Source of the DNA: Tetradesmus obliquus
Taxonomy: Eukaryota > Chlorophyta > Chlorophyceae > Sphaeropleales > Scenedesmaceae
NCBI GenBank assembly: GCA_030272155.1
Contig: CP126191.1
Span: forward strand, 3,494,501-3,558,500
Direction of reading: 5' to 3'
DNA: 64,000 bases
In this document: positions 24,574 through 63,767 of the stretch, piece by piece
How positions within the stretch are numbered: position 1 is the first letter of the stretch
Layout: every line of letters begins with the position of its first letter
The notes under the pieces: model-generated
What the model was told of the DNA's origin: nothing
Seen by the model: the letters and a program-made list of their open reading frames with translations, nothing else
The model's database searches: none
Translations under genes and position numbers: made by a program

Positions 24574-27500
24574 ATGGAGGTGGATTCAGCGAAGGTGCAG
24601 CATGTGTCAACCTCCAAGACCATATCACACAAAAGCGTGCCACGCTGGCTGCGCATGTCGATTCGTACGGCACTGCTGGTGGGCGTGATTGCCATCCCAG
24701 CCCTAGCAGTGAAGGACCCAGCCTTCGGAGCACTCAACAAATACAAAGCCTACAGGTGAGCGCATGAGCAAAGGCGCTGTCGCAGTTGCAGTAGCTTTGT
24801 TGATTGCATCTGCATCTACAGTGGCTTACGACTGTGATGCCATTCGTAACGTGACTGGCTTTCAGCAGTGAGCGTGATGTGCGGTAGTTCTGCTCCCATC
24901 AAGCGCCTGCAAACCGGCAGCCAGCGCTTCACTCCTATCAAGATAACGAAAATTAGATCAAGAGAATTAGTATCAGCAGCACCGCAGGGCATCTCCAGCA
25001 CAAAAAACTGCCTGCAGAGGGCTGACAGCCAGCTCGCTGGCTAATTAGCCAGTTTATAAACTCCAGCCAACTCTGCATCATTGCTGTCAATGCCGCCCCC
25101 GCAGCATCGCGTTCATGGTGCTGGGAACCATGGTACTGCCCATATGGGAGCCCAACCTGGGCCAGGTGGTGGTAATCTTCACGCTGCTCATACCCAGTGC
25201 GTGGCTGAGCTACATCATGTAGCATGATGCATCCGACTAGGAATGATTTGGCAATGTGCAGCTGGCATCTTCACGCTGCTCATACCCAGTGAGGCAAAAA
25301 GGATTCGGCTGCATGCATCTGACTGTTGCATGACTCGGCACGATTAGGCAGTGTGCAGTCCATCAAGCAGTAGACAGTCGCCGAGTTGGTGGTCATCTTC
25401 ACGCTGCTCATACCCAGTGCGTGGCTGAGCTGCATGCACTTGACCAGGCATGACTAGGCAGGTTGCAGTTGTCATCAAGCAGTTCAAACAACAAGTGATG
25501 AAAATCACGCTGTTCAGTTTGATCGACGCCTAGCTGGATTGGAGGAACAAATCGCTCTGGCAGCTGCTACTGCCGCGGGGTCGACAGCGGCCGTCAGCAG
25601 TGCAGCAAGCGGCATCACTGAGCAGCTCAAAACTCACACTGCGGCAGCAGCAAAGCGCAGCAAATCAAACATAAGCTCTGCTGTTGAAGCTGACCAGGCG
25701 CATGCGGTGCTGTGCTGTGCTGCGCTGCTGTTGCAGTGGCGTGTGCGTCCATCTGGCTTGCGTACGGGCTGTTCTTGGGCCTGCCCAGCCTCATCTTCAT
25801 GATGGCTGCGTGTGTGGTGGTCACCTTTGTGGTGCTCTTCACCGCAGAGCTGCTGAGCTTCGTAAGCAACACCCACTTGTGTTGACACTAATAAGCAGGG
25901 GTCAAGATCATATTCTGCTTGATTGTGCAGTTGTCCTGTTCATGGTACTCATCACCCAGAGCTGCTGAACTTATTGAGTAGGGTGTTCATTCGGAAACAG
26001 CAGCGAAGTGCTAAAATGCTGCCGTCACAGCCGCCATCTGCCTACTTGTGCAGTCAGCCTGCGTGCGCCAGCAGGCGTGCGGTGAAGACTGCACCACAGC
26101 ACAGAGTGTGTGACACATGCTGTTACTGCCTGCTCGCAGTGTGCAATGGCACACCTAAAACTGTCATTTGTGCTTTTACCATGCTCAAAACTTTCATTTA
26201 ACACCTGCTGGCTGTCACGCGCGCTGCAAGATCAGACCCACCCAAAGCCACCCTTGCACTGCTGTGTGACTTGCCAGGCGTACGCGCATGCTCTAGCCAT
26301 CAATTTGCAATTGCAATGTGCTCTAATGAAGCTTCTGCTGCTGCTGCTGCTGCTGCTGCCGCTTGCAGCCTGCAGGCCTGCTGAGCGTGTTCGTCACACT
26401 TTTCGTCGCGTGCGCCAACGTGTTCACATCAGCGCCGCGCATGGCGCACATGGCCTCCAGCCTGCTGAGCGTGCTGCTGATGGTGGCGGCATTCCTGGCC
26501 ACGCTGGTGTGCTGGCTGGTGTTCCCAGAGTACTGCGTGGATGAGGTGCGGCAGATGCTGCAGCGCTTGCGTTGTTGTTTGATACTTGTTCAAGAAATGC
26601 CACTTGTTTGTGATGCACCAGGGGATCAAGCACGTGCCGCCGCACTGTTCAGCTGCTCACCAGCAGTTTGGCAAGCGTGGATGTGTACAAAACATGCTGC
26701 ACCTTGACTCCTTGTTACTGCGCTGGTCGCACCCATGTTGCTGCACGTGCTGGCCCGCTGCTCCTTCACAACCCTGCACACAGTGAATTCTTTTTTAATA
26801 CTCCTGCAGGTCATCAGGTACCACCATGAGGGCTTAGAGCATCTGCTGCACCTAGCCCACTACGCATTCAACAGCAAGCCGCCGCCGCTGCTGAAGCGCA
26901 TGGCAGACTCATCCGCAGCCGCATTCGGCGAAGGCAGCGAGTGGCGCAAGGTGTTCAGCGCAGCAGATGAGCAGGCAGCAGCTGCAGGCGTGTACCCGCC
27001 GCTGCTGCAGCGGGGCCAATCTGGCATAGGGGTTGGCGCAGGGGTGTATGGGCTTGAGGAGGAGGCTGCGCGGTCACATGCTGTTGAGCGCAGCTGGCAG
27101 CGCGTGCACATGGCGCTGCAGGCTGCAAACAAGGCGCAGGTGGGGGCCAAGGCGGAGGTAGTGCTGGCGGCTGTTGGGCACAAGCGGTGAGCAGGGCTTC
27201 CTTTCGAAAAACTCTCATCATCACTGCTGCAGCATTTGTGCATCTGTGCTTTCCAAGGATTGTTGCGTAGGCGTGCTTATGTTATCGTGTTCGCAGGAGT
27301 TGTGCAGCTGCACTTGCGTTTCAGGTGCAATGTTCCACAACTCTGAGTTCACGGCATGCGCACGACATGTATGCACTTCAAGCTTCAAGAATAGGCATAG
27401 AGGCCATCAGTAAACAGTCTCTGCGCTGGCACTGCTCATTTATTCCGCCCTGCATGTGTTCCATCTGCGCTGACTGAGCAAACGTGGTGTTTCCGCCCTG

Positions 27501-29749: not shown

Positions 29750-32700
29750 ATGAACGCCACAATGCAGAAGCAGCAGGCTCGCCTGCAGGCCCCCAAGGCC
29801 GCAGCCCACCCTCGTGTGCAGTCTGTGCGCGCACCTGCAAGGCGCTCAGTCGTGCCCAGGGCCGCTGCCGTGGAGGCCCCAGCCAAGGTACCTTTTGGGG
29901 ATTGCGAGCTTGCAGCGGAATTGGAGGAGCAGGAGCAGAGCAGAGCAGCAGTCGGGTGGAGCAGTGCTAGGGCACACTGCCCATTCCCGAGCAGCAGAGA
30001 AGCAGGGACGGCAGTGCAGTGCTTGCATTGGGCTAAGCAACACCTGATCAAATGATCTTGTGCAGTATCAGGGCTTTTTGCACCTTCAGTTGGGAGGGGG
30101 TGCTGCGATTCCTGCGATGGCTTGCCTCAGCGCGCCAGCAGCATCGCTAACGGGCAGCTGCTGCGTTTATTATCGCTGTACAGGTGTCCCAGGAGACCGT
30201 GGACAAGTGCGTGAACGCAATCCGCTTCCTGGCCATCGACGCCGTGAACAAGGCCAAGTCCGGTCACCCTGGTCTGCCCATGGGCGCTGCCCCCATGAGC
30301 TATGTGCTGTTCAACGAGGCCATGAAGTACAACCCCAAGAACCCCGCGTGGGCCAACCGCGATCGCTTCGTGCTGTCTGCTGGCCACGGCTCCATGCTGC
30401 AGTACGCCCTGATGCACCTGGTTGGCTACGACAGCGTCACCGTGAGTGGCCTACTGGAGCTCAAGCGCATCTTGTCCTGTTATTCCATGCTGCACAGTGT
30501 CAGGGTCGCTGCAGGCCGGCTTGGGAGTGCTCCTGCCAGCAGCAGCATGCGCGACCAGCGGAGCACCTGACTGGCTGCCTTATTCTGCTGCTTCTGTTGT
30601 TGTTGCAAACAGATGGATGACATCAAGTCCTTCCGCCAGTGGGACTCCAGGACTCCCGGCCACCCTGAGAACTTCCTGACCACGGGTGTGGAGGTGACCA
30701 CCGGTGAGTGTGAAGTTCTGCATGCATACACCTCGAGAAGTGCGATGTTTTGCCACGTGGCGGTTGTAACAAGGACGCGGTTGCCGTGCTGCGTTCATCT
30801 GTAGGGTCCTGTGCGCAGCACACATATGCCATACACCTCAGCTGCTTGGGCCTGCTGCTGACGCTGTGTATGCATGCACGTGCTGCTGTTGTGTGCAGGC
30901 CCCCTGGGCCAGGGCATCGGCAATGCTGTGGGTCTGGCAGCTGCTGAGGCTCACCTGGCAGCCCGCTTCAACAAGCCCGATGCCAAGGTCATCGACCACT
31001 ACACGTGAGCACACAAGATGCAAACAAACTAACAGCTGGCTCTGTGCAGGCTACAGCGGATGCTGGCAGCTCCTGCATCCATCATCACACAATCGTGCGC
31101 AAATCATGAGCCAGTGGATGCAGAGTGAAGTGCTGCAGCAGCAGGCATTGTCTGTGGCAGCTGCATGCAGTAACAAGTGCCCCTGCTTCCATGTAGGATT
31201 CCCACAGATATAACTGGCGAAGCTTGCCTGTCAGGAATGTGCTGCCAGCAGCCACTTCGTCGTGGAGCGTCACCATCAGCAACCAGCTTTCGGCTTGAAC
31301 GTACAGTTGGCCCAAACTCTCAACTACGCATCTCATACGTCTGATCCCTTTCCTTCCCGTATCCCCGCAGCTACTGCATTCTGGGTGACGGCTGCATGAT
31401 GGAGGGCATCTCCAACGAGGCCTGCTCCCTGGCGGGCCACTGGGGCCTGGGCAAGCTCATCGCGCTGTACGACGACAACAACATCTCCATCGACGGCCAC
31501 ACAGAGATCTCCTTCACCGAGGACGTGGCGGCACGCTTTGAGGCGCTGGGCTGGCACGTGCAGCACGTGAAGGACGGCAACACCGACTTCGACGGCCTGC
31601 GCAAGGTGCGTGTGTAGGTGTTTATGCAGCAGCAGGAGCAGTGCGTGCAGTAGGGCGTGCAGCGGGTGCAGGGGTTGTGTGGCGGGTGTGATGGCATGTA
31701 TCGGCGGGATGGGAAGGGGGGTGATCTGGAGAGGCAGCACCTGCTGCTGCTTAAGGTTGCGGCATGCACAGGTGATGGATTGGAGCAGCAGAGTGAGGGG
31801 TGCTATCCCAGCAGCAGTAGGCATGGAGAGAATCTGGCAGTCGCACCAGCAGCAACGGGGTGTAACAGTCAGCAGCCGTGCTGCTTGCGTATGTTGGCTG
31901 GTGTGTGTAGCGCCAAGCAGCTGCCCCATGGTTTTATCTCCAACAAACCACTAAACCACTATATACTCCTGCCACGCATCCTCGCAGGCTGTGGCCAACG
32001 CCAAGGCTGTGACCGACAAGCCCAGCCTGATCAAGGTGTCCACTCTGATCGGCTACGGCTCACCCAACAAGGCCGACACCCACGACGTCCACGGTGCGCC
32101 CCTGGGCCCCGATGAGACCGCCGCCACCCGCGACAACCTGAAGTGGCCATACGGCGAGTTCGAGGTGCCTCAGGAGGTGTACGATGTGATGCGCAGCTCC
32201 TGCACCAAGGGCGCCGCTGCTGAGGAGGAGTGGAACGCTGCCTTTGCTGCCTACAAGAGCAAGTACCCCAAGGAGGCTGAGGAGCTGGAGGGCCTGCTGA
32301 GGTGAGGCTGGCACTGCTGCTGCTGCTGCTGCTGCTCGTGTGTGTTGTGTTGCAGCGTCTGTGATGGGCATTAGAGTGCCTGCTGCTTAGGGCAGCTGAA
32401 GTGTGCAGTAGGGCAGGCAGAAAGGGGGTGTGTCGACATGCAGTTGCAGCAGAGGGCGCGCAAATGTTTCAGTACGCGCAGAACAGCAGTGTGCTGCTTG
32501 CATCTAGCAGCAGACAACAGCTGCTGCATGCCTTACTTTGTCACAGTCCCCCGACCGCCACCTACCCGCCAATGCTCACCGCACCTGCCACCCTGCCCTG
32601 CCCTGTGCCATTCATAAACACCCTCCTCCCGCAGCAACAAGCTGCCCGCCGGCTGGGAGAACGCTCTGCCCAGCTACACGCCCGAGGACAAGGGCCTGGC

Positions 32701-34379
32701 CACGCGCCAGTACAGCCAGATCATGCTCAACGCGCTGGCCCCAGTGCTGCCTGGCCTCATCGGTGGCTCCGCTGACCTGGCGCCCTCCAACCTGACGCTG
32801 ATGAAGATGTTCGGCGACTTCCAGAAGGGCAGCTACGAGGAGCGCAACATGAGGTGAGCAAAGAGCAAGCGTGCTTGGTACAGTGTGTTCCTGCAAAGTG
32901 TTACAGTAACGGCAGCTGCTGCCAGGTCATGCGGCTGCGGCGGCGCGGGGATGAGGCTAAGGCATAGCTGCTGTTATGGGTGCAGCGTCACCATGACAGC
33001 ATGTCTTCTGCAACTCTGCATTTTTCAAACAGCCCAATATACAGACAGTCACAAAACGTACGATGTGCTGCTGCTGCTGCCGCAGGTTTGGCGTGCGTGA
33101 GCACGCCATGGGTGCCATCGTGAACGGCGTTGCGCTGCACAACACCGGCCTGATCCCATACTGCGCCACCTTCTACATCTTCACAGACTACATGCGCAGC
33201 GCCATGCGCATGAGCGCACTCAGCGAGGTGCGAATGGGGCCCTGAGTTTGCTGCAGCAGTTGGATGCAAGCGTCGCATGTCATGACGTCCAGCAGCTAGC
33301 AACGCCCTGAGCCAGTTACTGATCCAGCGCAGCTGCGCTTGAAATGGTGCGTCTGCTGTTTGTTCCCGCTTCCCTCACATGGGGTACTAAGGTCTTCTCG
33401 CTGCTGTCACCTGCTGCTGTTGCTGTCTTCTGCTGTGTGCACCTTGATATCAACAGGTGGGCGTGATCTACGTGATGACGCACGACTCCATCGGCCTGGG
33501 TGAGGACGGCCCCACCCACCAGCCCATCGAGCACCTGGCCAGCTTCCGCGCCATGCCCAACATGAACATGTTCAGGCCTTGCGGCGGTAACGAGACTGCC
33601 GGCGCCTACAAGGTGGCTGTGTCCAGCCGCAAGCGCCCCAGCACCATCGCGCTGTCCCGCCAGGGCATGCTCAACCTGCCCGGCTGCAGCGTCGACGGCG
33701 TGGCCAAGGGCGCGTACGTGATCCACGGCGGCGAGGGCACGCCCGATGCCATCATCATCGGCACCGGCTCTGAGCTGCCCATGGCAGTGGAGGCCGCCAA
33801 GAAGCTGGAGGCTGAGGGCAAGAAGGTGAGCGAGGAGAATAGCGATTAGTTATTCTTGTGCTGCGCTTTTGTGATTCTTGCAGGCGTATGCGGTGTTTTT
33901 GTTTTACGGGCGCAGCTTGTCGCAGCTGCAGCTGGCTGGATGCATCATGTGGCGAATGCCTCTGCTCCCGCAATCGGATCGGCATTTTCAGGCTAGCGTG
34001 GCAGCATCCGCATTCATTTGCTGGTTTCGTGGTGCATCCACAGGGTGTGTACAAGCTACACTATAGCTCCGACGTGCTGACTGGCTGTGCCTGTGCTGCT
34101 GCTGCTATGTCCTGGCAGGTGCGCGTGGTGTCCATGCCCTGCTGGGAGCTGTTTGCCGAGCAGAGCGCAGAGTACAAGGAGAGCGTGCTGCCCAAGGCTG
34201 TCACTGTCCGCGTGGCTGTGGAGGCTGGCAGCAGCTTCGGCTGGGAGCGTTACATCGGCCAGAACGGCAAGTTCATCGGCATTGATGACTTTGGTGCATC
34301 TGCCCCCGCTGACATCCTGTACGCCAAGTTTGGCATCACTGTGGACGCTGTGGTGGCTGCCGCCAAGGCCCAGATGTAA
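29750..34379 (+). CDS. TKL: Transketolase, plastid
   Basis: Thiamine-diphosphate enzyme moving two-carbon units between sugar phosphates in the Calvin cycle and pentose phosphate pathway. Ten exons: 29750-29887, 30184-30441, 30613-30703, 30899-31004, 31371-31605, 31988-32301, 32635-32853, 33086-33227, 33457-33825, 34119-34379 (710 aa, normal for algal and plant plastid forms). The first 46 residues are rich in Ala, Arg, Gln, Pro and Val ([20 protein letters not shown], then [13 protein letters not shown]), as in chlorophyte transit peptides. Conserved segments include [39 protein letters not shown] with the following NNISIDG (TPP/metal site), [28 protein letters not shown] and [10 protein letters not shown]. 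No key residue is missing. The exons use almost only C- or G-ending codons, as expected of a highly expressed gene. A TGTAA at 34917-34921 is a likely poly(A) signal. Confidence 0.97.
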
Positions 34380-38140: not shown

Positions 38141-38174
<34 letters not shown>

Positions 38175-43915: not shown

Positions 43916-46900
43916 ATGGCTTGGCCATTTAGGCGTGTATTTCGCGTGTGCTGGTGGCTGCTGTGCACTGCCACGTTGTGTGCCTTGCCTCTCACGATAT
44001 GGGAGTTCAAGAATCAGGGCTGGAGCCCGCACTACCAAGGTATGCGATTCAGAAACTCGAAGAAAACTTACAGCACCAAGATCCGCAGCTGTCCACATCG
44101 TTCACCTGCGTGACCTTCCTGTGTTCCTGCTGTGTGCTGTCTCTGCACTGCAGGATGGTTCATAGGGGGCATCTTCGTTATCCTCACCACGCCTATCGCT
44201 GTATACGAGGTGTGACTCCTCCCACCAGCGTATACATGGCTGCAGGATGCCTGATAATCAGCTACATGCAGCACAGCGGGACCGCTGCAGTGCTGGGACT
44301 GTGGCAACAGCACAGCTGAGCAGGTTGAGCAGGTGCCAACATTCAGCAACGTAGCTCATTGCAACCTAGAGTTGAGCAGCTTCTCATGATGCTCACCGCA
44401 GTGTTGTAAACTTTCCCTGCAAGCATGCACTCTACCTCTCTCACACAGGGCTTGCACCCCAGCCAATGCATGCAGTGCACATTTCAGCAGGCCAACACCT
44501 ACCACACCTGCTGTGCCGCGCCGCCTTTTACTGCACCCTGCAGGTGGCCATGCACACCGAGTACTACACGCGTCCGCGCCTGCAGCGCCACGTCATACGC
44601 ATCCTATGGATGGTGCCCATCTACTCCCTGGACGCCTGGCTCGCGCTGCGCTTCAAAGATGCACGCGCATACTTAGATCCCGTGCGCGAGATCTATGAAG
44701 CATACGTCATCTACAACTTCTACGCCTACCTCATGAACTATCTGGAAGACGAGCTGGGGCTGGTAGATGAGCATTTGGCGAAAAAGGCGCCCATTGGCCA
44801 CATCTGGTGAGGCAGCGTGTTGGGCAGCAGCGGTTGTATGGTTCAGCACACACTGGATGCGGGGGGGCGTGCTCAGCAGGGTGGAGCATTTCAAGCGGAA
44901 CGATTGCTGGGCACAGCAGCTGCAGCAGCAGCGGCAGCAATACCAACAGCAGCAGCTGCAGCAACGGCGCGAGCCGCAGCATTTGCAGCAGCAGAGGCAA
45001 CAGCAATGCGTGCCAGGGATGCAGCAGTGCTGTGCTGTGCAGCGTGGTAGAGGTGTATGACACCCTCGCTCGCCGCTGCTTGCCTGTGTGAGTGCTGATC
45101 ATGCCACAATGTGGTGATTGCATGCCTGCAGGCCGTTCAACCACTGCCTAGCGCCTTGGCGCATGGGCCAGGAGTACATCTGGGAGACCAAAAAGGTGCA
45201 GTGGGTGCCAGGCGTTTCAGCATGGCGGACAGCAGCCATGTAACACCCGTCAGCAGCACCACGTTTGATTTGCCGTTACAGCTGCTGTGGGCTGGCATGT
45301 CACGTGTAGCAGCCACTGTCGAGTTGACTGCCGTTGTGGTGCATCACTGAGCATGCGCAGTGGCAGTCACCATCAGCCAGACAGCTCAGCTGCTGCTGGC
45401 GTGTGCCGCTTCGGTTGGAGCTGCACTGCTGCTCCTGCCGCTTTACGCTTCAGCGTCTGCTGTGCTTGCGTTGCTGCAGGGCGTGACGAGTTACGTCATC
45501 ATCCGCCCGCTGTGCACAGCACTGGCGCTCATCACGAGTCAGTTTGGCGCGTACAGTGAGGGCAGCTGGCGGCCCAACAACTCCTACCCATACCTGGCCA
45601 TGGCCACAAACCTGTCTCAGGTGCGCGCAGCAGCTGCAAGCACGGCTGAGGGTGCAGGCTGCTGCAGCAATGGTGTTATGAGTTGTTTGAGTGCAGCAGC
45701 AACGACTCATACCCATACTTGGCCATGGCTACAACTTGTCGCAGGTCAGCGGTGCGCGAGTAGGTGTCTTGGCCGGCGCTGCAGAACATGTGTGTGGGAG
45801 TGTTGCTGTGGGCGACCTTCCTGGGGTGCTCAAACCGCGGCCATTGAATCAGCTGGCCTGGCCCAAGTGCTAAACCCATTTGCTGGTCTTGTGGTAGCAC
45901 ATGTTGGAGAAGCATGTGTTATCACAAGACAAGCAAACGGTTGCAGCACTTGCGCAGGCCAGCGAATACGTTTGGTACGGCTTGTGACAAAGACTAATGG
46001 ATATGTACACCGGCCAATAGTCGGCCAGCAGAGCTAGGAGACATGAGGTCCATAATGCAGCTGATGCAGGGTAGCGGTCCGAGCAGCAACAGTGTTCAGA
46101 GTATGTGGCGACAGCAACAAGAGTGGCTGCAGCCGCAGCAGCAGCAGCAGTGGGCAGCGCACCTTTGTTCTGCTGTAGTGCACAGCATCTGCTCAACGTC
46201 CACACCTTCTGCTGATGTGCTGTGGTAAGCAGGGCACGCCTACTGCCCTTGCTGCCGACTGCTCAACCTCCTGCGCTGCGCCTGTCCTGCTTCTGCTGCT
46301 GCTGCTGCTGCTGCCAGATGTGGGCGCTGTACTGCCTGGTCATGTTCTACCACGCCTTCAAGGACGAGCTGCAGCCCATCCGGCCGCTGAGCAAGTTTTT
46401 GTGCATCAAGGCGGTGGTGTTCCTCACCTTCTGGCAGGGGCTCAGCCTCAACATACTGGTGGCAGTGGGCGCGATCAAGGTGCGGTGTGGCAAGAACGAA
46501 TGAGTGGCAGGCTGTGTGTTGGTGGGGCATTATAGCATGGAGGCTGTGTGCTGACCCTTGAAATGTGTGCTTACACGTTGCACTGCAACCCCTGCTGGGC
46601 TTGCATCCTTTCATGTGCTTGGTGTGTGAGATGTGCTGAAGTGCTGCTGCTGCTGCTGCTTGCGTTCTGCAGGTGAACGAGCAGTTCACAACGTACACGG
46701 CTGCTGACGTGGCGGAGGGGCTGCAGGACTTCCTCATCTGCATTGAGATGTTCCTGGCTGCGCTGGCGCATGCCTACGCCTTCCCGCCACGGGTGAGGGG
46801 CGCAGCAGCTACAAACAGCTTGCGGGGGCAGACAGCGGCACAGCATGCAGTGCAATGGGCAGTACACTGCAAAGGACACTGGCGTGTGCACTTGACTCTG

Positions 46901-47964: not shown

Positions 47965-48013
<49 letters not shown>

Positions 48014-48190: not shown

Positions 48191-48814
48191 GCAGATCCTT
48201 CCACAAACTCAGTAGTAACTTTGGGAGGGTCCCTTAGGGCTGCGCTGCAGCAAGTATAGCAAGTGCAAGTTGGCTTGTGCTGTATATCGGCCTTGGGGTG
48301 TGTGGCAGTTGCATGCATTGAGTTGTAGAAGGCTGGTGTTGGCACCCACAGCCTGCACTGGTTGTCAGCAGCGTTGTACAGCTCTACGTGTGGGTATTTC
48401 ATCTGTGCATTCATGTAGGATACTCTGTACAGTAGTGTTGTGTCAGCACGTGGCTGTATTTTCAACTAGAAGGGTGGTGTACGTCAGCTCCTGGACATAT
48501 TGCCTTCTCAAGTTCTGCCTGCAGGCAGCCCTGCAGCTGGCGGGCTGGCGTGGCGAACTGTCACTGTAACACTCAGTAAGCTGTTGCACGAATCCTAAAA
48601 TGAGAGGTTACACGTGTTGAATGACTGTTTGTTGCTTTCAACCTTGCGACAGGCCATGCCCTGTACTGCCGCGCCAAAGAGGACAGCCAGGGGGTCATGC
48701 AACCGCGGTGCAATTTGTCCAGCTGATCGATTGTAGCTTTCAACCATCAATTTTGCAACATCGCAATCGAATGCAGCAACAATCGTTTCCGCTTTGAACT
48801 TTGGCGGTTTGGCC
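48191..48814. other. Intergenic region TMEM184 / sulfotransferase A
   Basis: TMEM184 3' UTR (TGTAA 48565-48569) and the promoter side of sulfotransferase A. A minus-strand ORF at 48595-48861 overlaps the sulfotransferase start and has no family resemblance. Confidence 0.5.
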
Positions 48815-51358: not shown

Positions 51359-52063
51359 CTGCGTGCCTAGAAAATAGCATCTGTTGCAAGGCAGCTTGGA
51401 GATTTCGGTCCCTTGGCGGCTGAAAAAGCTGGGTAACACCTTATCATTGCGAGGTTGAATCAACTTGATGTTGCAGGAAGTCCGTTGTGCACTGCAAGGT
51501 ATAGATCACATGAGGTGCAGCCAACCTGTGCAGCAAGCTCTGTATCGGAGGTGGGAGGGCGCAGCCAGTCAGCATTATGACAAAAATGCGGCATGAAGGC
51601 TAGTTCTATGTTGTATGCCGTGCCTGGCACGATGTTTCAGTACAACAAAGTTAACTGGCGGGCTCCCCGCGCTGTGCAAACAGCTGGTTCTCCTTGCCGC
51701 TGTCTTGAAACCAGTCGACACTTGTTGCTTATCAAAAGCTGACATTCTATAGTGGTTGAAGAAGTCAGGACCGATGGACGGCGAGATATGCAAATCTGCC
51801 GGGCAGTGCCTGCTGAAATGACAAATGTTGACACCATGCCTTCTCCCCAAATTCGATGCAAGCTGAGCCGTCACACTGCAAAAAATTGTGATCGATTGTT
51901 TGTGTCCACCTTTGTGCTTGCTTTACTGTAATCGCACATCCATTGTTTCGAATCATGCGGGACACCCGCGCCACCAAAATCACCAGCACACCAGCTGACA
52001 AGCACTCATTCTCGGACAATAAAATGCACCAGTAAATTGTTATTGATTTGTAACATCTGCAGC
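51359..52063. other. Intergenic region between tandem sulfotransferases
   Basis: 3' flank of copy A (TGTAA at 51927-51931) and upstream region of copy B. No exon and no visible remnant of a third copy were found. Confidence 0.5.
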
Positions 52064-54859
52064 ATGACCAGGCCTTCTCTGAGTTGCTGCTGCGACACAG
52101 CCTCGACTCCCAGGCACAAGGGGGCAGCATCACAACCGAATCGCCCAGCAGCTGCCCTATGCAGACTCTTCCTATTATGGCTGCTACTGTTTTGGGCCAA
52201 ACAATGGCTGCATCCAACCTCCAGCCAGAAGCATGCTTCACATGCGGCACCGGCGCTTGCTCACAGCACAACAACAGCAGCAGCAGCAGCAGCAGCCGTG
52301 GATATCCAGTGGCTCCCCAGCCCCTGGGTGGGGCAGCCAATACCACTAGACCCGCTGGCATGCACGCCGCAGCTGCTGATCATCGGGGCCATGAAGGGCG
52401 GCACCACGGCGCTGTTCCACTACCTGAACGGCTCACAGCCAGCCATCCACTACCCCAACGGCAGCAAGTCACATGTGGACTTCAAGCCCAGGTGCGACGG
52501 TGGCAGCAGCAGCAGCAGCACAGGCTCAAGACGGCTGTGACAGCTGCTTGGTGTGCTGCTGAGATTGACGTCAGGAAATGGGATCTCGTGCACGCCCTCT
52601 GATGAGTTCGTCTGATAACTGAATGAGCATGGGCAGGTGGTTGCAGCACATGCGAGCAGTGCCCACATGTCGAAGTGACAGGGGCGGCAGCAGCAGCAGC
52701 AGCAGCGCGTTGAGTGCCTGAACTGTTCTTGTATGCTCAGTAGTCCCCGTGCTGCTCTGCTTGTCACAGGTATCACCCAGGCATCATTGGCGCTCATGCC
52801 ACTAAGGAAGTCAACTTCTTCAACAAACGCCCCAGCAAGATAGCCAACGCAACGCTGCAGCAGCAGTACTTTGCCAGCTTCCCTGGCGTGGATGCATTGG
52901 TGGACCAGCCCCTGGCGGGCAGGTGCAGCTACCCGGCACAGCTGGGGCTGAGCAGCAGCAGCAGGCCGGCGCTGGTGCGCATGGAGGCCACAGCCATGTA
53001 CCTGGCACATCCCACAGCAGCAGCAAACGTGCAGCGGCTGCTGCCACAGGTGCGGGTGGCATCCTGTCAAGAGAAGTCAGCGCTGTGTGCTGACACCAGT
53101 TGCGTGGTAAAGAGCAAGCTGCAAGCTGCACAATGCGCGCTGTTGCACTGCTTACGTATATCATTTGTCCGTGTCCTGCAGGTGCGCCTGTTGGCGCTGT
53201 TGCGTGAGCCTGTCAGCAGAGCCCTGAGCAGCGTCAACATGCTCTTCCAGAACCAGCATGTACACCTGGAGCAGGCCAGCCCAGCATACCAGCAGGCGTG
53301 GCAGGTTTATGTGATTACAGAGCTTCGCAGGTGAGCACAGGTTGCGGACTTTTTCTTGCAAGGAGTGTGATCACCTGTAGCACGTTACACTCGCAGATGG
53401 GGCTCAGCTGCTGGTGGCAGCGCTGTAAAGAAAGCCATGCCACTGCCTGGTGTTGGTTCAGTGCTGCTGCTGCAACCAGGCTTACAACACTGGTGTTTGC
53501 GTACCTGGCATTGCAGAAGTATGGGTGCAACATGAACATCTTGCTGAGACGGCTTGAAGCATGGTCTGTCGCGTGATGCTGCTTGATGCTGCCTAATGCT
53601 GCTTGATGGTGCTTAATGCTGCTTGTTGTGCGCACTGCAGGCAGCTTCAGGTGCTTAGGGGCTGCTATGCCAAGGTTGCACTGGGCCTTACTGTCCACCG
53701 GCAGGTTGATGACTGCGTGTTCGCCCCCAATCAAACACTGACAGGGTAGGATCCTGCCCTGGCTCCTAGGAGCCTCTGCACACTGGTTACAGCAGCAGCT
53801 GCTGCTGCCACTCATCATGCTGCAGCATCTGTAGCATCTGTGCGCATGCACCAGTTGGTTGCTCGGGCTGCACACCACATGCCACACCCTGCAGTTTGGG
53901 CGCAACAGCATGCCATCGTTTTAGTGGTTTGGAGGTGCTGCAAAGACTCTGCATTTCAGCATCAGATGGGACATTTACGTTATCAACACTGCCTGCCCAT
54001 CGTCGTAGCCAGATTCCCACTGCAGCATTGCTGCTCATCCCACAGCCCTCCTGCGCACAAGCCTTCGTCACAGCATCATACTTTTGCTCAATTCTTCTTG
54101 CATCCCTGTAGGGTGCTGCACGTCCATGTGGGGCTGTACGCGGTGCACCTGGAGCGCTGGCTGAGCCACTTTGCACCACAGCAGCTGCTGATCTGGGTGA
54201 GCCGCCAACGCTGCAAGCATTGGCACACCATTGCCGCCAGCTCAGCACATGCTGCAGCCATGGGGCACACCCATGCTTGCTTTGCCACTTCAACTGACAT
54301 CAAGTGTGTGACCAGCGTCGCTCATTGCTCAAGGCTGGTGCGCGTGTGGTGGGTAGTTCTGCAGGCCAGCGAGACAGACCATAGATCCAGGACATGGTGC
54401 ATGCATGTGTCCAAGCTTGACAGTGATACACACAGACACTGCAACTCACACTACACATCATTTGTCAGTGACCAAGTAGCACTCGCTGAACTTTGCCTGC
54501 TGTCCCTGCCTGCCGTGCAGTCTTCTCATGCCTTTGATGAAGCTCCTGCTCAGCACATGGACCAGCTGGTGCACTGGCTAGGCCTGGACCCAGCCCTCAC
54601 CTGGCACAACAGCACAACCTTCACACGCATGCACAAGCGCAGCTACCCGGCAGGCTCCCTGCCTGCTGCGCTGCTGCAAGAGCTGGTTGCATTCTTCCAG
54701 CCGCACAACGAGCGCGTGTTTGCGCTGCTGCAGCGGCACGGCTTGGGGAGTTTGGTGCAGCAGCTGCGCAGGGCCTGGCAGCTGGAGCTGGCAGAGACCA
54801 TCAGCAAGCTGCAGCAGAAGCCTGCTGCGCATGGTAGGCAGACACAGGTACAGCCCTAA
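52064..54859 (+). CDS. Type II membrane carbohydrate sulfotransferase B (tandem paralogue)
   Basis: Six exons: 52064-52491, 52770-53049, 53182-53330, 53641-53745, 54112-54196, 54521-54859 (461 aa). The phases match copy A at every junction, and exons 2, 4 and 5 have the same lengths as in copy A. It shares LLIIGAMKGGTTALFHYL and LLREPVSRALSSVNMLF, with KEVNFFNK in place of KELHFFDK. From WLPSPWVGQP to the end of exon 1 the DNA is nearly identical to copy A. The N-terminal 85 or so residues are unrelated: a Cys/Arg-rich start, a short hydrophobic anchor (CRLFLLWLLLFWA) and a Thr/Ala-rich stem. Exons 3 and 4 are clearly more diverged, notably after the first ten residues of exon 4. Substrate preference may therefore differ. 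The start is the first in-frame ATG; a longer frame opens upstream only with TTG. Confidence 0.88.
53574..53625 (+). repeat. Decameric minisatellite (gatgctgctt-type), about 5 copies
   Basis: Imperfect repeats of gatgctgctt/taatgctgct lie in intron 3 of sulfotransferase B, just before the acceptor of exon 4. Copy A has no equivalent tract. Confidence 0.8.
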
Positions 54860-56193: not shown

Positions 56194-56268
56194 AGCTGCC
56201 GAAAAGCAGCCACGCAGTGCTAGTACAAGCAGCTGCCAAAAAGCAGCACGGTAGCGCTAGTACACAAG
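56194..56268 (+). repeat. Tandem direct repeat, unit about 37 bp
   Basis: Two adjacent imperfect copies, 56194-56230 and 56231-56268, both beginning agctgcc and containing gctagtac. Confidence 0.85.
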
Positions 56269-56624
56269 AACATCAAGGCTCAGAAGCCTGAGTAGCCAAC
56301 ATCCATTTCAACGAGCACACGTTACTGGCGCTCGCACGCCATGGCACCCCGGTCGCATGCCAAAACAGTGCCGTGTCCGTTCGCATCATCGGCAAAGGCA
56401 TGACTGCATGTCAACACTGTGGGAGGGCACCAATCCAAACCGCCAAGCTATCTGTGCCACAAACACAGCTGCTGAGCGCAGCTCAACACCAACAACACCC
56501 AACAACCACCGTTTGCACATACAGCAGCTGCCACGCAACACAATGCGTACCAGCAGTAACGGCCGCCTGCACAAGCGCATGCGTCGACGACAAAAGCATG
56601 CAGTCAGCTTACTATATCAGTAGC

Positions 56625-57820
56625 TCAATAGCCGCGCCCGCCGCGGCCCCTGGGGTCGCGCTGCAGCGGCGCGAACCTGTTGTTAGGCGGCCCACCCTGC
56701 TGCTGCTGCTGCTGCTGGCCAGCCCAGGGCGCAGGCGCCAGGGCCAGGCCTGCACCCGGCTGCTGCTGCAGATAGCCGTCAGCCACCTGCTGCGGCTGCA
56801 GCTGCAGCTGCTGGAACTGCTGGTGTGGCTGGTGATACTGCTGGCCCTGCACCTGCACAGCACCATACCCAACAGGCTGCTGCACCTGCACTACATAGCC
56901 ACCCCTGCCTGCAGCCATCGGTGCGCCATACTGCTGCTGCTGCTGCTGCTGCCCTCCTTGCGGCCGCATGCTGTCATAGAACGAGCCGCCACCCCTCCCA
57001 CCCACCGCAGGCCCCCTGCCTGGTGCCGCATACGCTACAGGAGCGCCGCCGCCGCCATACGCAGCAACCGACATCATCGGCCGCGCACCCGGCTGCTGCA
57101 GGGGTGCGCCGTATGGCTGTGCCACGAACCCTCCAGCGACCGGCTGCTGCTGGTAGTAACCGCCGCCACCGCCAGGTGGCGCAGCTGCACCCCCTGGTGC
57201 CCCCAGTTGCGGCAGATGATGCCCTAAAACACGCTGCCAGGGCCCCTGCTGCTGCTGCTGCTGCTGCTGCGGAGGGCCGCCATAGCCGCCCCTGCCCCCA
57301 GGCGGCCCGCCCCTGCCTGCTGCTGCATACACACCACCAGCCTGGCCATACATTCCAGGCTGCGCAACGCCAGGCGGCCCACCATACCCGCCCCTGCCAC
57401 CTCTCCCGCCTCCATAATCATTGTAGCCACCGCCTCTCCCGCCGTACCCACCATCACCACCACCATATCCATCATTATACCCGCCGCCCCGGCCGCCGCC
57501 GTTGTCATATCCGCCTCTTCCGCCGTACCCACCCCTACCGCCGAATCCCCTGCCCCTGCCGCCGCCCCTGCCACCCCTCTCCATGTGCCACAGCGTCTTC
57601 TCAGGTGGCAAGTCCTCCACTTTAATGCTGGCCTCAGGCAGCACTGTACCCTCCATGAGCCTGCACTGGTGCTGCCGGTGCTGTGGGAGCTTGTAGGTGG
57701 CTGCCAGCACTGCATTGGTGGTGACGTCAGAGCCGAGGCTGAAGGGCGCAGGGATGACAGCAGGGCAGGCCTCGCCAGCCACAGCCAGCAGGAAGCCTGC
57801 AGGCAGGCAGGGGGAGGGAT

Positions 57821-57870
<50 letters not shown>

Positions 57871-59512
57871 GTTGATGTACGTGCAGCTGACATGGCCTCT
57901 CCAGCAACAGCCAGCAGGAAGCCTGGCAGCAGGCAGAAGACAGGTAGCAGCAGCAGCAGAGACAGCATATTAACACGAGTGCAGCTGATGATAATGTACA
58001 GCCATGCAACACTTGCACACAAAACATACCCAGTAACCGCCCTGGTTAACTGCTGCGTAGTTCTTGCACAGCAGTTACCAGCCAGCAGTGTGGCCGTTCT
58101 TTTAGCCGAAACACTGCTGCCACCCACCAGACATGCCGTTGCTGACTGCCGTGTCAATGGCCTCGCCCGCTGCTGCTGCGCGCTCCTCAGGACTCAGGCC
58201 GGCAGCAGCCTCTGCAATCTTCAGGATGGCAGCAGCCAGGCTGTGGCTGTTGTGCACATACAGCACCTCCATGCGGTGGCTATTCCTGTGGGGCGCAGCG
58301 CCGTGCATTTGGCGGGTGTGCGTCATGGCGGGAGTGGCAGGCAGCAGTACAGGCAGCAGGGTCAGCAGATGCGGCCTGCAGGATAACAAAGAGTGCGTCG
58401 CAACTGCGGGGCGCCTGCACGAGCCAAGCATCGCCTGCACAGCCGACAGTGGCCACAAAGCAGGACTGCACTGCAGGACATAAGCCACCTGTTCCTTGTG
58501 TCCGCCCTCCTCAACAGCTAGCCTCCTTCCGACAAAACAAGTTCTCCGCCGGACTTCACACCAACTTCCCACCACACTCCCCAACAGCCTCACATGAACT
58601 TCTGCTCCGGGCTGAGCTGGTCCAGCAGCGCGCCCGTGGCCTCCAGCAGCCGGTCCTGCTCGATGAAGGGCAGCAGCGCCACGCCCTGCCACGCGTAGCG
58701 CTTGCCGTTCATGTCCACCGCAAACTTCTTGGGGTAGAAGTCCAGGATGGGCGACTCGGGGTCGTCAAACAGCCACCTGCGGGGGTGAGTGGCACAGCAA
58801 CAGTTGTTTGAAGTCCCGTCCAGCGCACGCATGCTGCGTCTATTGGCTGCTGTGGAGTAACCACAGACAGTCAGCAGCATGTCAAACAGCCACCTGCGGG
58901 GGAGAGGCACGCAGCAGCAGCAGTCAGTGTACGCTTATCAGTGTACGCTTATCAGTGTACGCTTATCAAACAGCAGCCTGCAGGGATCACTTGAGAGGCA
59001 GGGGAGTTTGAACGAGTGTCCAGCCCGCACATGCTGAGCCTATTCACTGCTGTGGAGTCACCTCACACTGTCAGCAGCATGCCTCTGCATGCAGCGCCTT
59101 AAGGCACCTGCCACATCCCCGCCAAACTTTAAGCTGTTGCTGGCCGCGCCGCCGCACCTGAAGCACTCTGGCAGCGCGTGCTTGCTGGCTGCCGGCAGCA
59201 CGCCCATGAGCTGGTTGAAGGGGCTGAAGGGCCGCCCGATGCTGAAGCTGATGTCCAGGCTGGCCAGGTTGACCAGGTCGGAGGCAAAGGGCGCGTAGTG
59301 GTAGGGGTAGAACCTGCGGCAGGAATGAGGTAAGTGTTGGTGAGCATGCGGGGTAACGAAGTGTGCATGAGAATGGTCATGACATCAAGAACAACGCAGC
59401 AACACCCAGCCAGTGACCAAAAAAGTGTCGACCAGCCATCACACTAGCCAGCTCAACTCACACACAGATACATATGAATTTGTTGCAGAAAACAGCACGC
59501 CTATTACGCTGT

Positions 59513-59552
<40 letters not shown>

Positions 59553-62500
59553 CGGCTCACCACTCCCAGCTGGCCACGCCCTCATAGTAGTAGCTCATCA
59601 CCCAGCACAGGCCCTCCACGTAGCTCTTCACAATGGCGGCAATCACGGGCGCCTGCTGCTCAGGAGCCACGCCCATCTTCTCCTGGTAGTACCTGGCAGC
59701 CAGCAGCAGCAGCAGCAGCAGCAGCAGACGGGGCAGCAGCAGCACGTCAGGACGTGTCATGGAGCAGGTTGCCCCAACCAACGGCAGCATTGCTGTCAGC
59801 GCCCTCACCCCATAACAGCACACCTCCACCCAAGCTGCCTCTCTCGTCACACATCCCTTGCCAAACCCTACCCCTGCACAGCACGCCTCTCCTCCCTGCA
59901 CCCCCCGCCAAGCCCCATACCTCCCCGCTGCTTCCAGCCCTCCTCCCCCAGCCGGATCTTCTCCTCCTGCTGCGAGCCACCCCAGCCCTGCACAGCACAA
60001 CCCCTGCTCCTGCAACCATAGCCCTGCCAGCCCTGCTCACCGCTGCTTCCAGCCCCCTCCTCCCCGAACCGGTTCTTCTCCTCCTGCTGCGCGCCACGCG
60101 CAAATCACCCCCACCCCTGCAAAGCACAACCCGCAGCTCCTGCACTTCAACCACTGCCCCGCTCACCGCTGCTTCCAGCCCTCCTCCCGGGGCCGGACTG
60201 AATCTCTTCCTCCTGCTGCGCGCCACCCCACCCCACCCCTTCAAAGCACAATCCCTGCTCCCGCAACCCCAGCCCAGCCCCAGCCTGCTCACCGCTGCTT
60301 CCAGCCCTCCTCCCCCAGCCTGATCTTCTCCTCCTGCTGCGCAGACTCCTCCAGCTTGTCGCTCCGGCTCTTGAGCAAATCTTCAATGTGCTCCTTGAAC
60401 TCCGCCAGCGCCGTGTCATCAGCAGCAGCCAGGGCCGTGCCATCAGGGCCTAGTGGCAGCAGCGCCCCGCTGCCCAGGTGCTTCAGCGCAGCAGCATCTG
60501 CAACGTCTGGCTCTGCATCGATGTCGTCGTCAACGTCCTCCTCAAGCTCCTCGTCTTCTGCTGCTGCTGCTGGGGCGTCGCCGTCCGCAGCTTCCATGAC
60601 CTGCGTGGCGGGTCAGCAGCAGAGAGAGCTGAGCAACAAGGCCGCTGTGCCGAGGCAGTGTAAACAGTGGACAGCTGTAGTAATTGTTACGGGCTCCTCG
60701 TCTTCTGCTGCTGCTGGTGCATCGTCGCCGTCCGCAGCTTCCATGACCTGGGATGGCAAGAAAAGCCAGCAGCGGCAGCAGCGGGCGGCAACCACACGGC
60801 TGTGTCATGGCACTGCGTGCGCAAGATAAGCATCATCAACCGCCACACACATATTTACTTTGACTGCAGCCAAAGAGCCAAACTACATGCCGCACAGCCT
60901 CTCACTGTCAGACACAAGCCAACCATCCCACTCACCTCATCTGGCTGGCCAGCAGCAGCAGCAGCATCCGCAGCCTCAGCCATCTCCCCATCAGGCTCAG
61001 CAGTCCTGGCACGCTTGGGGCTGGGCTCCCCAGGGGTGGCAGAACTCTCCCCGCCGCTGCCATTGCCAGCAGCACCATTGGCGCCATTCGCAGCCATTGC
61101 AGCTGGGGGCGACGCTGTGCCGCCTGCACCCGCTGCTGCTGCAGGCTCCTCTTCTGCCGGTGCTGCTGCTGCTGCTGCTGCATCGCTGCTGCTGCCGCCG
61201 CCCTTCATCAGCCGCTCGCGCAGCAGCTGAGCAGCCGACTTGTTGCTGGCCTTTGCAGCAGCTGCTGCATCGCCGTCAGCAGCTGACTGGTCAGCAGCCG
61301 CACCTTCAGCAGCCCCTGCTTCATCAAACCTGATATGCTGGGGCTGCTTCGCACCACCTGCTGCTGCTGCAGCTGCCTTAGCTGCTGCCCCAGTGAAGTC
61401 CAGCTTGTGCTTTGCAAAGCTGCTGACAGGCTTGATGTCGCCTGCTGCTGATGCCTTCTCTATAAATGCTGCGCTGGGCGCTGCCTCGCTGGCGATGTAC
61501 TTGCGCTTGGTCTGCGCCTTGCGCGCCTTGTCAGCAGCCACCTGGTACTTCACACGCTCGCGCTGCCTGCATGGCGGGCAGCGCAATAAAGATGTACATG
61601 TGGTTAACAGGTGCATAACCATCTGCATACAAGAAACTGGCATGAAGAATGGCCAGGTATGCTACCAATACGTGCAGTTCCTGATGCCTTGCAAGCACAA
61701 CACGTTGTTCAAGTACTCAGCCCCTGTTCAGTAGCCTCAGGGTTCTGTTATTCTGCACGCACCGCGCCAGCAGCCGCATGCGCTTCTGGAAGATGACGTC
61801 CTCGAAGCTGCCGATGCGCTGGATGAACTTCTCTACCTTGGCCAGGTCCACCTGCGCACCGCGTGTGAGGTAGCCGCCCAGGCTGGGCAGCATCTGCTTG
61901 TACACAGACATCATGAGATCGATGGCGCCCTGCGGTCGGTGTGACGAGGCGGGTGAATCAAACGGTTGAGACGTTGCGCGGATGGGGTCAGCGGAGACAA
62001 CAATACGTGCGTGTAGCAGTTGACGATCACGTCGAGTGGCAGAGGACAAGTAAAGCAGCTTATCTGGCCATGGCAATGGCACGACATGCAGCAGGTCCTT
62101 ACGCCTGTGCCACGTGTTACTGCACAAGAAGCACCACATGCCCAACCAGCGCCAGAATCACCTCCCTGATCTCCAGCTGGGCATGTGTGGCAAAAGCTCC
62201 TTGCCCCTGCTACTCTTATGTCAGCATCTTACTTCAAACCCAACTCAAACCAACTCAAGCCCCGTTCCTGCACGCAGCAGCCGGCTCTCACCTCCCTGAT
62301 CTCCAGCGTGGGCATGTGTGGCAGGAAGTCGTTGCCCACAAAGAAGCACAGGAACACAAAGTCATCCAGCACGCGCTCCCGGTCAAACGGGAACGGCAGA
62401 TGCGGGATCCTGAACTCCAGCGCGAGGTACTCCCGCAGCAGCGAGACGCTCAGGAACTGGAACGGCTTGCGCGCAAAGTCGGGCGTGTCGTCTGCGTCCT

Positions 62501-63767
62501 TGTCGGCGGCCAGGCCGGTGGTGCGTAGCGCGGAGGTAGGGTCATTGCCGGCAGAGGCGAGCATGGCAGCCACGTTGGGCTTGTTGTCTGGCGGCGCGTT
62601 GTTCTGGAAGATGACCTGTGTGTGCAAGGACGGCAGAAGGGCGTGTCAGCGGCGGGCATCAATGAAAGCAACCTTGCAAGCTGCAGCAGCGCATGCCATT
62701 ACCACCTGAACACATGTAAAACAACTGTGTTATACCGCTGCGGTTCATGAAGGTGCAGCATAACTAGAACATGTGGCACAGCCTGATGAACGCAACACCT
62801 GCTCAAGAGCTTGCCAACCAGTGCTGTGGCCTGTACAAGCTTTGTCGCAGAGCCGAGGCGTGCTCTCGCGCTCACCTCACGCAGAACCGTGACGGTGCGG
62901 CTGTTGCATAGCCGGCGCCAGCATGATGCGGTCATAACATGCTTGTCACGGTGTGTGACCTCCCAACAGACCCAGAGCCACGCTCCGAAACAGACCCGCC
63001 GAGGAGAATGTCAAACAAAACTATGGCCGCTGTTTGGTTGGTGTTGGTTGCTCATTGCACTTGTAGTCCCCAGCAACAATAGCACACTCCCACAGTGTAC
63101 AACACACGCACCTCGCGCAGGATGGTGAAGTGCGGCTCGTGCGTGGCCAGCGCCAGCATGATGAGGTCCGCATCCAGCCCATACATCACGTGGCGCGTGT
63201 TGGGGTTCCAGCCCGGCTGCCCGCGCTGCTCGCGCACAAAGGCCATGGCCTTGTGCTCGCCCTCGCCTGGCACGTTGGCGTCAGACAGCACCACCTGGCG
63301 GCAGGAGTGATTGAAAACAGCAGGCAGCGGTGAGGACTCAAACAGGAGCAACAGAGGTACTGCTGTGAGCAACGTTAGGGTGTGCATGATGCGGTGGAGG
63401 CTTGTCGCAGCACGCACCTGCACCACCCACAGTCAAATAGCATCCCAACCTGTCCCGTGTATGCACGGTTTAGTGCATCACCTCTCATCTCCGTTGACTG
63501 CAAGGTACATTTGACACTTGATAACCTATGTAACATAATCTGGCACCTTCCTCAGGCCCACACACGCAGCCGCACCTCGATGTCGCGCCATCCCGGGTCG
63601 CTGTTCAGCCGCAGGTGCACGTAGTACTGCAGCGCGATGGACAGCCGGTGCATGAAGGGCGTGCCGGGCGTGATGGTGTTGGAGTCGAAGATCTCGCTGC
63701 GCTGCTTCTTGGGCACGTGGATGCCCTGCTTGATGAACTCCTGGCGCAGACGCTCCTCCTCAGCCTC
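56625..63767 (-). CDS. XRN: XRN-family 5'-3' exoribonuclease (Rat1/XRN2/4-like), 5' partial
   Basis: Degrades 5'-monophosphate RNA in the nucleus or cytoplasm. Visible exons: 63767-63576, 63294-63112, 62615-62292, 61929-61763, 61566-60936, 60600-60293, 59692-59561, 59313-59158, 58776-58594, 58285-58128, 57796-56625 (1,201 codons after the first visible exon; the N-terminus lies beyond 64000). Family blocks: [34 protein letters not shown] and [19 protein letters not shown] (catalytic acidic residues present), [56 protein letters not shown] and [19 protein letters not shown]. The order and spacing match nuclear-type XRN2/Rat1. No CCHC zinc knuckle is seen after [13 protein letters not shown]. 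The last exon encodes a tail of RGG/GGYGG repeats, then a Gln-rich segment. Six introns carry copies of adjacent exon ends. Confidence 0.93.
57769..57935 (-). repeat. Copy of acceptor plus start of the last XRN exon, 126 bp upstream
   Basis: The real acceptor and exon start (GCAG|GCTTCCTGCTGGCTG at 57799-57782, through GGCGAGGCC ending at 57769) is matched by CCAG|GCTTCCTGCTGGCTG through GGAGAGGCC ending at 57895, inside the preceding intron. A (CAG)14 tract (57826-57867) lies between the copies. Confidence 0.88.
57826..57867 (+). repeat. (CAG)14 tract in an XRN intron
   Basis: In the sense of the gene this reads (CTG)14 and lies just upstream of the pyrimidine-rich acceptor of the last exon. 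Confidence 0.95.
58764..59081 (-). repeat. Three-unit tandem duplication across an XRN 3' splice site (~116 bp)
   Basis: Unit 1 (about 58764-58879) includes the real acceptor and exon start encoding RWLFDD. Unit 2 (about 58880-58965) repeats acceptor and RWLFD, and a 14-bp minisatellite (agtgtacgcttatc, three copies) follows. Unit 3 (about 58966-59081) keeps the flanking gctgctgtggagt and cagtcagcagcat-type sequence and a decayed acceptor. Confidence 0.88.
59515..59550 (+). repeat. (CAG)12 tract just inside an XRN intron
   Basis: In gene sense this is (CTG)12, starting about 10 bases after the donor of the exon ending at 59561. A second tract, (CAG)9 at 59701-59727, flanks the acceptor on the other side of the same exon. 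Confidence 0.9.
59921..60345 (-). repeat. Four-copy 126-bp array of an XRN exon end with its donor
   Basis: The true exon end (60345-60293, encoding [16 protein letters not shown] before GTGAGC) is followed in the intron by copies whose donor-side edges lie at plus-strand positions 60161 and 60035 (period 126 bp), and about 59921 (about 114-122 bp further). Copies 2 and 3 retain GTGAGC at the donor position; copy 4 has lost it. The intervening intron sequence (tgcacagcacaacccctgctcc-type) is repeated too, so the whole exon-intron junction was amplified. Confidence 0.92.
60546..60750 (-). repeat. Duplicate of acceptor and exon start (VMEAADGD), 147 bp upstream
   Basis: The exon starting at 60600 (CAG|GTCATGGAAGCTGCGG, encoding [18 protein letters not shown]) has a near copy at 60747-60691 with CCCAG|GTCATGGAAGC. 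The copy is in frame, encodes [19 protein letters not shown] and is followed by GTAACA, so it could be a cassette exon of 57 bases. Confidence 0.88.
62158..62340 (-). repeat. Copy of exon end plus donor in an XRN intron (130 bp away)
   Basis: The exon end encoding [10 protein letters not shown] with its donor (about 62288-62335) is matched at 62158-62205 (tcacctccctgatctccag, then gggcatgtgtggc). The copy retains the GTGA donor start. Confidence 0.9.
62874..63172 (-). repeat. Diverged copy of exon end (ADLIML...LRE) in the next XRN intron
   Basis: The exon end at 63112-63172 (read on plus: acctcgcgcag, then gccagcgccagcatgatga) recurs 236 bp away at 62874-62932 (acctcacgcag, then gccggcgccagcatgatgc). 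The copy ends in GAG|GTGAGC, a better donor consensus than the real GAG|GTGCGT, but its frame is broken. The spacing is about twice that of the other loci. Confidence 0.82.

Follow-up and report, generated by a model that had tools for sequence, protein, structure and literature searches.

Exon ends repeated within adjacent introns of Tetradesmus obliquus: a possible record of recombination between diverged alleles

The 64,000-nucleotide stretch of Tetradesmus obliquus considered here (GenBank assembly GCA_030272155.1, contig CP126191.1, positions 3,494,501 to 3,558,500 of the forward strand), referred to below as the window, carries predicted genes in which the end of an exon, together with its splice site, recurs inside the neighboring intron. 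Across the boundary of exon and intron, about 100-150 bp have been duplicated in direct orientation in each of these features, and the extra copy lies in the intron. Nine such loci had been proposed from the sequence, and all nine proved to be direct repeats across a splice junction when a blastn self-comparison, a reading of the sequence and the predicted exons were combined (Table 1). Their arrangement is also as proposed, with donor-side copies lying downstream and acceptor-side copies upstream.

The self-comparison of the window returned 16 direct pairs at 90-300 bp with a score of at least 46, with overlapping rows where copies form arrays; at this score, inverted pairs were absent within 2 kb. 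Eight of the nine loci were recovered at a score of at least 38 (25167, 25831, 45581, 58764, 59921, 60546, 62158 and 62874); the weakest of the nine, 25831, was barely recovered. The ninth, 57769, is a short exact repeat that was also found by the junction search (junction 57796). Spacing had been put at about 97-147 bp with one locus near 236; the measured lags are 92-147 bp, with the 236 of locus 62873 upheld and a 220 added by a third copy (25164/25384), while the 59921 array covers lags of about 115 to 367. One extra direct pair in the window (63777-63924; lag 113, 86% over 35 bases) is not linked to a junction.

Table 1. Real exon ends and starts in the window and the copies found beside them. 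Positions count from the first base of the window; the position given for a donor is its first intron base, and the real acceptors on the minus strand adjoin the exon starts 57796, 58776 and 60600.
Feature	Positions	Strand	Basis or match
Real exon; 3' end 25175-25196 and donor GTGCGT (25197) repeated downstream	25105..25196	+	frame joins exon at 25737 (by reading)
First intronic copy of 25196 exon end, GTGAGG donor-like site	25267..25291	+	25/25 identical, lag 92
Second intronic copy of 25196 exon end, GTGCGT donor-like site	25384..25435	+	94% over 52 bases, lag 220
Real exon end, donor GTAAGC at 25862	25830..25861	+	self-comparison, predicted exons
Intronic copy of 25861 exon end, GT lost	25943..25972	+	87% over 31, score 38
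Real exon end, donor at 45621	45575..45620	+	self-comparison, predicted exons
Intronic copy of 45620 exon end, one-base gap, GT retained	45700..45746	+	85% over 48
Real exon start, acceptor at 57797	57781..57796	-	exact repeat, predicted exons
Acceptor-side intronic copy upstream of 57796 exon	57907..57925	-	19-base exact match, lag 126
Real exon start, acceptor GCAG	58764..58776	-	sequence reading, self-comparison, predicted exons
Acceptor-side intronic copy upstream of 58776 exon	58881..58920	-	85% over 40, lag 117
Additional degenerate copy of the 58764 unit	58966..59081	-	73.5% over 117 to 58765-58881
Third, most distal intronic copy, XRN array	59925..59974	-	49/50 identical to real exon end
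Second intronic copy, XRN array	60032..60097	-	self-comparison
First intronic copy, XRN array of 129-bp period	60161..60221	-	self-comparison
Real XRN exon end, donor at 60292	60293..60342	-	self-comparison, predicted exons, homologue continuity
Real exon start, acceptor CAG	60546..60600	-	self-comparison
Acceptor-side intronic copy of 60600 exon start	60693..60750	-	54/58 identical, lag 147
Intronic copy of LEIRE exon end, one-base deletion	62158..62206	-	88% over 50, lag 130
Real exon end (LEIRE), donor at 62291	62292..62337	-	sequence reading, self-comparison
Intronic copy of 63112 exon end, most diverged	62873..62933	-	80% over 61, lag 236
Real exon end, donor at 63111	63112..63168	-	sequence reading, self-comparison, predicted exons

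Six of the nine loci fall in one predicted gene, which encodes an XRN-type exoribonuclease (Pfam XRN_N and XRN_M). In its protein, the exon end that bears the array is joined straight to YYQEKMG, and solved XRN homologues align without a break at that point, which places the three extra copies of the exon end in an intron. Homology thus shows that splicing would remove the extra copies of this array, and the same presumably holds for the other loci. A search of the XRN unit across the assembly gave four matches, all of them local, and thus no further copy in this assembly; a search of the unit against a plasmid collection gave zero matches. At the 3' end of the same predicted gene, an RGG-like tail rich in glycine, arginine and tyrosine reads in frame (window 56625-57700, minus strand).

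The wider analysis covered 304 kb of the 104.66-Mb assembly (17 contigs; guanine-plus-cytosine content about 57%, 56.7% in the control block): the window, a block of 200 kb at a distance of 2.3 Mb in the same contig (C1), and 10 kb from each of four further contigs (C3, C7, C11 and C15). The gene models, unannotated, are from our own hidden Markov model, which was seeded on nine open reading frame stretches of the window and re-estimated on the 304 kb. The model learned GTG-type donors and TGCAG acceptors, and a Pfam family was assigned to eight of the nine predicted protein pieces submitted; its faults are that it merges genes, inserts tiny exons and labels some intronic copies as exons. From 1013 predicted junctions with at least 30 coding bases, 132 of low complexity were removed, which left 881 testable; junctions with a copy on the far side too were also removed.

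Of these 881 junctions, 132 (about 15%; 64 donors and 68 acceptors) have at least one copy in the intron next to them. Counted by the 132 outermost junctions, 78 families hold one copy and 54 hold two to six. With simple repeats masked, 219 direct pairs at 40-450 bp stand against 2 inverted ones, and 11 of 243 pairs were removed as low complexity; the inverted control and the masking together rule out chance or low complexity as the source. The merged loci number 118 (window 7, C1 block 92, C3 0, C7 1, C11 9, C15 9) and are clustered along the sequence, with a variance-to-mean ratio of 2.2 per 10 kb. A further tally took in 242 junctions whose copy lies toward the intron, exon-called copies among them, and there the lag peaks at 100-150 bp and rises again at 200-250. 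The original prediction of one recurrent process is supported on four of the five contigs sampled (the 10 kb of C3 gave none), in direct orientation, with a narrow lag and with the copies hidden by splicing. Matches to the branching-enzyme exons come in pairs about 137 bp apart, in a relative at C16:3736731-3736936 and in a match at C8:124988-125163, and the phenomenon probably extends to these two contigs.

No shared element was found, in keeping with the proposal that no named element explains the copies. Whole-unit queries of the kinase and branching-enzyme regions returned themselves and short matches at relatives, so that, together with the XRN unit, all whole-unit matches are local; the fourth region queried, Clp, returned 244 matches and was swamped by triplet runs. 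CAG/CTG triplets are very frequent throughout the window, in exons and introns alike. Joints at triplet repeats were considered as an origin and rejected: 15 of 61 joints lie near CAG/CTG runs against an expected 0.19 (p 0.33), and the spacers are not enriched in triplets.

The focus on splice sites has two components. Against a shift null, 97 of the 118 merged loci pair an exon with an intron (39.5 expected, standard deviation 5.0), while intron/intron loci number 8 (43.7 expected), exon/exon loci 8 (18.7), intergenic/intergenic loci 0 (6.3), exon/intergenic loci 4 (4.1) and intron/intergenic loci 1 (5.7). This focus persists under other masking and at identities of at least 0.95 (17 of 21 against 6.7 expected). 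At two-copy loci it is largely an effect of visibility, because the intron parts have diverged too far for intron-only duplications to be seen: they are detectable alone in 4 of 60 loci, a rate that predicts about 4.8 intron-only loci, close to the 7 observed; a second measure (10 of 75) predicts about 9. We consequently gave up a mechanistic junction focus for the two-copy loci. A different picture emerges in families of at least three copies, in which the intron parts are detectable alone in 33 of 46, yet only one of the 42 multi-pair loci is confined to introns and 36 pair exon with intron. Exon sequence thus seems to be required for arrays to grow. The original prediction had staked itself on an excess of junction-spanning copies and on a spacing preference; both appeared in the 304 kb, as the excess over the shift null and the lag peak, with the reservation that the excess at two-copy loci is largely visibility. 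One of the rare duplications with both ends in intron calls lies at C1b 165786-166089 (L021; 152 bases, lag 151, 87% identity).

The anatomy of the copies is best seen in the 61 single-pair exon/intron loci, in which the medians are 61 nt for the shared block, 130 for the lag and 73 for the spacer. Mean identity drops sharply at the splice consensus, near donor base +6 and acceptor base -4. The splice dinucleotide is retained in 86-94% of copies, depending on class, and among copies called intron 91% have GT (n=34) and 86% have AG (n=35), figures to be read with the bias of predicted junctions toward copies with good splice sites. After eight loci with spacers shorter than 25 nt were left out, the spacer showed a weak but clear in-register relationship to the intron beyond the copy (16 of 53 at rank <0.05 against 2.7 by chance), and 6 of 53 spacers were related to the exon side (2.7 by chance). 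The extents of the match into exon and intron are anticorrelated at lags below 200 (rho -0.42, n=48; rho -0.11 over all 62), a pattern expected of a tract of constant length that overlaps the junction to a variable degree. Blocks of high identity (at least 0.94) span a median of only 0.28-0.44 of the lag, long lags included, and for this reason full-unit tandem duplication as the sole origin was rejected.

The divergence between the copies is the unexpected finding. Between the exon and its intronic copy, synonymous divergence (dS) is 0.18 and nonsynonymous divergence (dN) 0.039, which gives a dN/dS of 0.21 (confidence interval 0.17-0.26; 132 families; 111 codons with more than one change are left out), and between intronic copies dN/dS is 0.22 (0.16-0.30; 54 families). 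The exon comparison holds in Pfam-backed genes (0.22; 48 families). Per 1000 opportunities, synonymous changes amount to 72.9 transitions and 45.4 transversions, and missense changes to 20.0 and 9.0; single-change stops occur 6 times in 1212, three more stops lie in multiply changed codons, and frameshift gaps affect 31 of 236 copies. Simulated data passed through this pipeline returned 0.43 for a neutral copy, 0.81 for two neutral copies and 0.09 for two constrained ones, and the observed 0.21 and 0.22 thus lie well below what neutral decay of hidden copies would give. Long constraint followed by a short neutral phase returned 0.17; a two-stage history, with long divergence under coding selection and then a short neutral phase, fits. 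In the 78 one-copy families, synonymous counts fit one common dS of 0.19, with a chi-square per degree of freedom of 1.09. The intron flanks are mostly unalignable between copies.

These values bear directly on the simplest account, in which ordinary tandem duplications are tolerated in introns without selection and the exon part stays recognizable longer since the real exon is constrained. Direct orientation, intron-internal examples such as the one in C1b, and the visibility effect at two-copy loci agree with it. So does the subset of loci with significantly homologous introns, which as a whole is close to the neutral expectation: where the copy was called intron, the exon diverges by 0.19 and 0.19 and the intron by 0.16 and 0.20, and where it was called exon, the exon diverges by 0.08 and 0.10 and the intron by 0.20 and 0.18, although this subset selects the most alike loci and its 60-nt windows may overrun the ends of blocks. 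The dN/dS values, the short reach of the high-identity blocks and the ratio of 36 exon/intron arrays to 1 intron-only array all speak against this account, and we regard it as improbable. The original suggestion of repair-associated tandem duplication, read as a plain event on one chromosome, implies a neutral hidden copy and is not supported by a dN/dS of 0.21 and intron flanks that mostly do not align.

Coding-like divergence and retained splice dinucleotides might instead indicate that selection maintains the copies because transcripts use them as alternative exons or splice sites; 36 of 210 copies even extend to the far end of the predicted exon. If the splice site of the copy were used, however, 137 of the 210 would shift the frame, 56 would meet a stop and only 17 would remain open, as alternative or mutually exclusive exons should. 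The lag modulo 3 is nearly flat (60, 74 and 54 for 0, 1 and 2), and frameshift gaps occur in the copies as counted above. Functional exons of this kind are therefore very improbable; we gave up the view of the intronic copies as coding and used after the frame test (193 of 210 frameshift or stop), and the idea that they seed new exons would apply at best to the 17 open cases.

Coding-like differences in a place that cannot code suggest that the copies diverged elsewhere, as working alleles, and were joined later; most of the divergence was probably acquired while both copies were working exons, as different alleles. The explanation that we tentatively favor, with confidence a little short of even, is recombination between diverged alleles followed by expansion anchored in the exon. 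The two copies would not derive from one chromosome: diverged homologous alleles would meet during repair or unequal recombination, alike enough to pair in their exons and too different in their introns. Synthesis would start in the exon, enter the intron of the other allele, fail to re-anneal and be joined to the broken end, and the outcome would be the exon end and intron head of one allele beside the exon end of the other. The common exon block of about 40-75 nt could then permit unequal exchange and the growth of arrays, introns would lengthen as a by-product, and the hidden copy would decay slowly once joined, as the rarity of stops and frameshifts suggests. The kinship of the spacer to the intron beyond the copy and the trade-off between exon and intron extents count for this allelic origin, as does an eight-copy acceptor-side array with two spacer types around one exon block (C1b 193608-194391, L024), whose succession of spacers may record exchange between two alleles. 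Reports on related Scenedesmus count for it too: one strain is described as likely diploid with a haploid size of 103.4 Mb (PMC7955037), and one assembly is nearly double the size of another (PMC5552973). The broader proposition is that the exon ends within introns preserve, like fossils, past recombination between highly diverged alleles and that such events drive intron growth genome-wide; it is advanced more tentatively still.

The arrays invite another explanation, in which a tandem duplication arises in place and then evolves in concert: the intron parts are free to diverge, and the exon part is held close to the real exon by conversion or unequal exchange with it, which also removes damaged copies. 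One array has a 118-bp period, 4.6 units and near-identical spacers; in some arrays a copy shares exon variants with one unit and its spacer with another; and in the kinase array units 1 and 3 are nearly identical over about 80 exon bases despite visibly different spacers. Retained splice sites would also follow, and whole-unit likeness is seen in some arrays, although most two-copy loci are without it (the intron part scores alone in the 4 of 60 given above). Conversion alone, however, cannot lower dN/dS below the simulated value of about 0.43, so that selection strong enough, acting through recombination, would be needed to reach 0.21. Exponential ages should also over-disperse synonymous counts (an expectation that was not simulated), yet the counts are not over-dispersed, and stops and frameshift gaps persist. 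Concerted evolution as the full account is thus unlikely, if far from negligible.

A different concern is that the assembly itself creates the pattern, if a contig passes from one diverged haplotype to the other and retains a short overlap of the two; only exons would align, and the result would mimic a duplication across a junction. Two haplotypes should indeed show a uniform dS, coding-like differences, flanks that do not align and similarity limited to exons, and related strains may be diploid, as noted above (PMC7955037). Against this, 54 of the 132 families hold at least three copies in all, 22 of these with at least three third-position classes; periodic arrays have common spacers; lags are broad and do not correspond to a single k-mer length; stops or frameshifts affect at most 15% of copies (9 stops and 31 gapped copies of 236); and the genome is in 17 contigs. 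An assembly artefact is distinctly unlikely as the general cause; such mosaicism would mimic two-copy loci and not arrays.

Several observations weigh against recombination between alleles, among them the resemblance of two-copy loci to assembly mosaicism just described and the near-neutral subset with homologous introns. The evidence for an interallelic origin is indirect, and the constant offset of about 120 bp has no account in it. The 22 families with at least three third-position classes would require more than two alleles, and unit exchange, which acts in some arrays, may have a larger role than we credit. Intronic copies in Pfam-backed genes differ from each other at a dN/dS of 0.32 (0.19-0.56; 21 families), zero synonymous counts are more frequent in one-copy families than expected (17 against 10.9), and introns appear more diverged than a dS of 0.18 implies. 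Finally, a duplication does not go with greater length among predicted introns (the median is 134 where one is present and 172 where none is), which does not support intron growth; we take this comparison as uninformative because the gene finder labels copies as exons and so splits introns.

Among the other contents of the window, a transketolase gene lies at 30613-34375 (the submitted piece matched Pfam Transketolase_N). Two regions about 3.2 kb apart, 48737-49297 and 51932-52540, both read LLIIGAMKGGTTALFHYLNGSQPAIHYPNGSKSHVDFKPR near-identically and resemble a tandem gene pair, which we take to be sulfotransferase-like. At the gathering threshold, Rfam gave zero matches within the window.

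If the allelic reading is true, other alleles have left legible traces in a single genome, and there is a concrete and testable route to longer introns in species whose haplotypes are very diverged. Even if duplication and conversion suffice, a coding-like hidden copy at about 15% of tested junctions affects gene prediction, as our own gene finder called many copies exons, and bears on the evolution of splice sites and on tests that treat introns as neutral. If the assembly is at fault, the pattern flags a type of haplotype error that resembles biology.

Among the matches listed from the open-licence PMC literature (titles and abstract openings), no report of a genome-wide set of junction-straddling copies appeared. 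In having direct and close copies, the features agree with short tandem duplications or minisatellites. Introner elements alter intron content genome-wide and carry one sequence common to many loci; the features described here likewise change intron content genome-wide, but no one sequence at many unrelated loci was found, since whole-unit matches were local in the queries tested. In intron gain by AGGT duplication, a donor in one copy corresponds to an acceptor in the other. The duplicated exon sequence there also ends inside an intron, whereas here both copies bear the same kind of splice site in the 19 examples inspected by eye. Small tandem duplications also arise from break repair, through 53BP1-Shieldin-CST-Pol alpha fill-in and end joining or through Pol theta, as PMC8355091 describes; like ours they are short, direct and require no element, but that route copies one molecule and its copies are identical at the start, whereas our two-copy loci mostly have no full-unit identity and their differences are coding-like. 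A further likeness is in PMC4974935, which describes AGGT intron gain and a potato RdRp gene in which a tandem duplication crossing an intron-exon boundary created an intron. As in our loci, the duplication spans a splice junction and its splicing signals are inherited from the parental junction. The potato gene is one recent case in which an intron was created and part of the first copy stays exon, whereas at least 132 junctions in 304 kb of T. obliquus carry a copy hidden in an existing intron and diverged from its exon in the manner of an allele.

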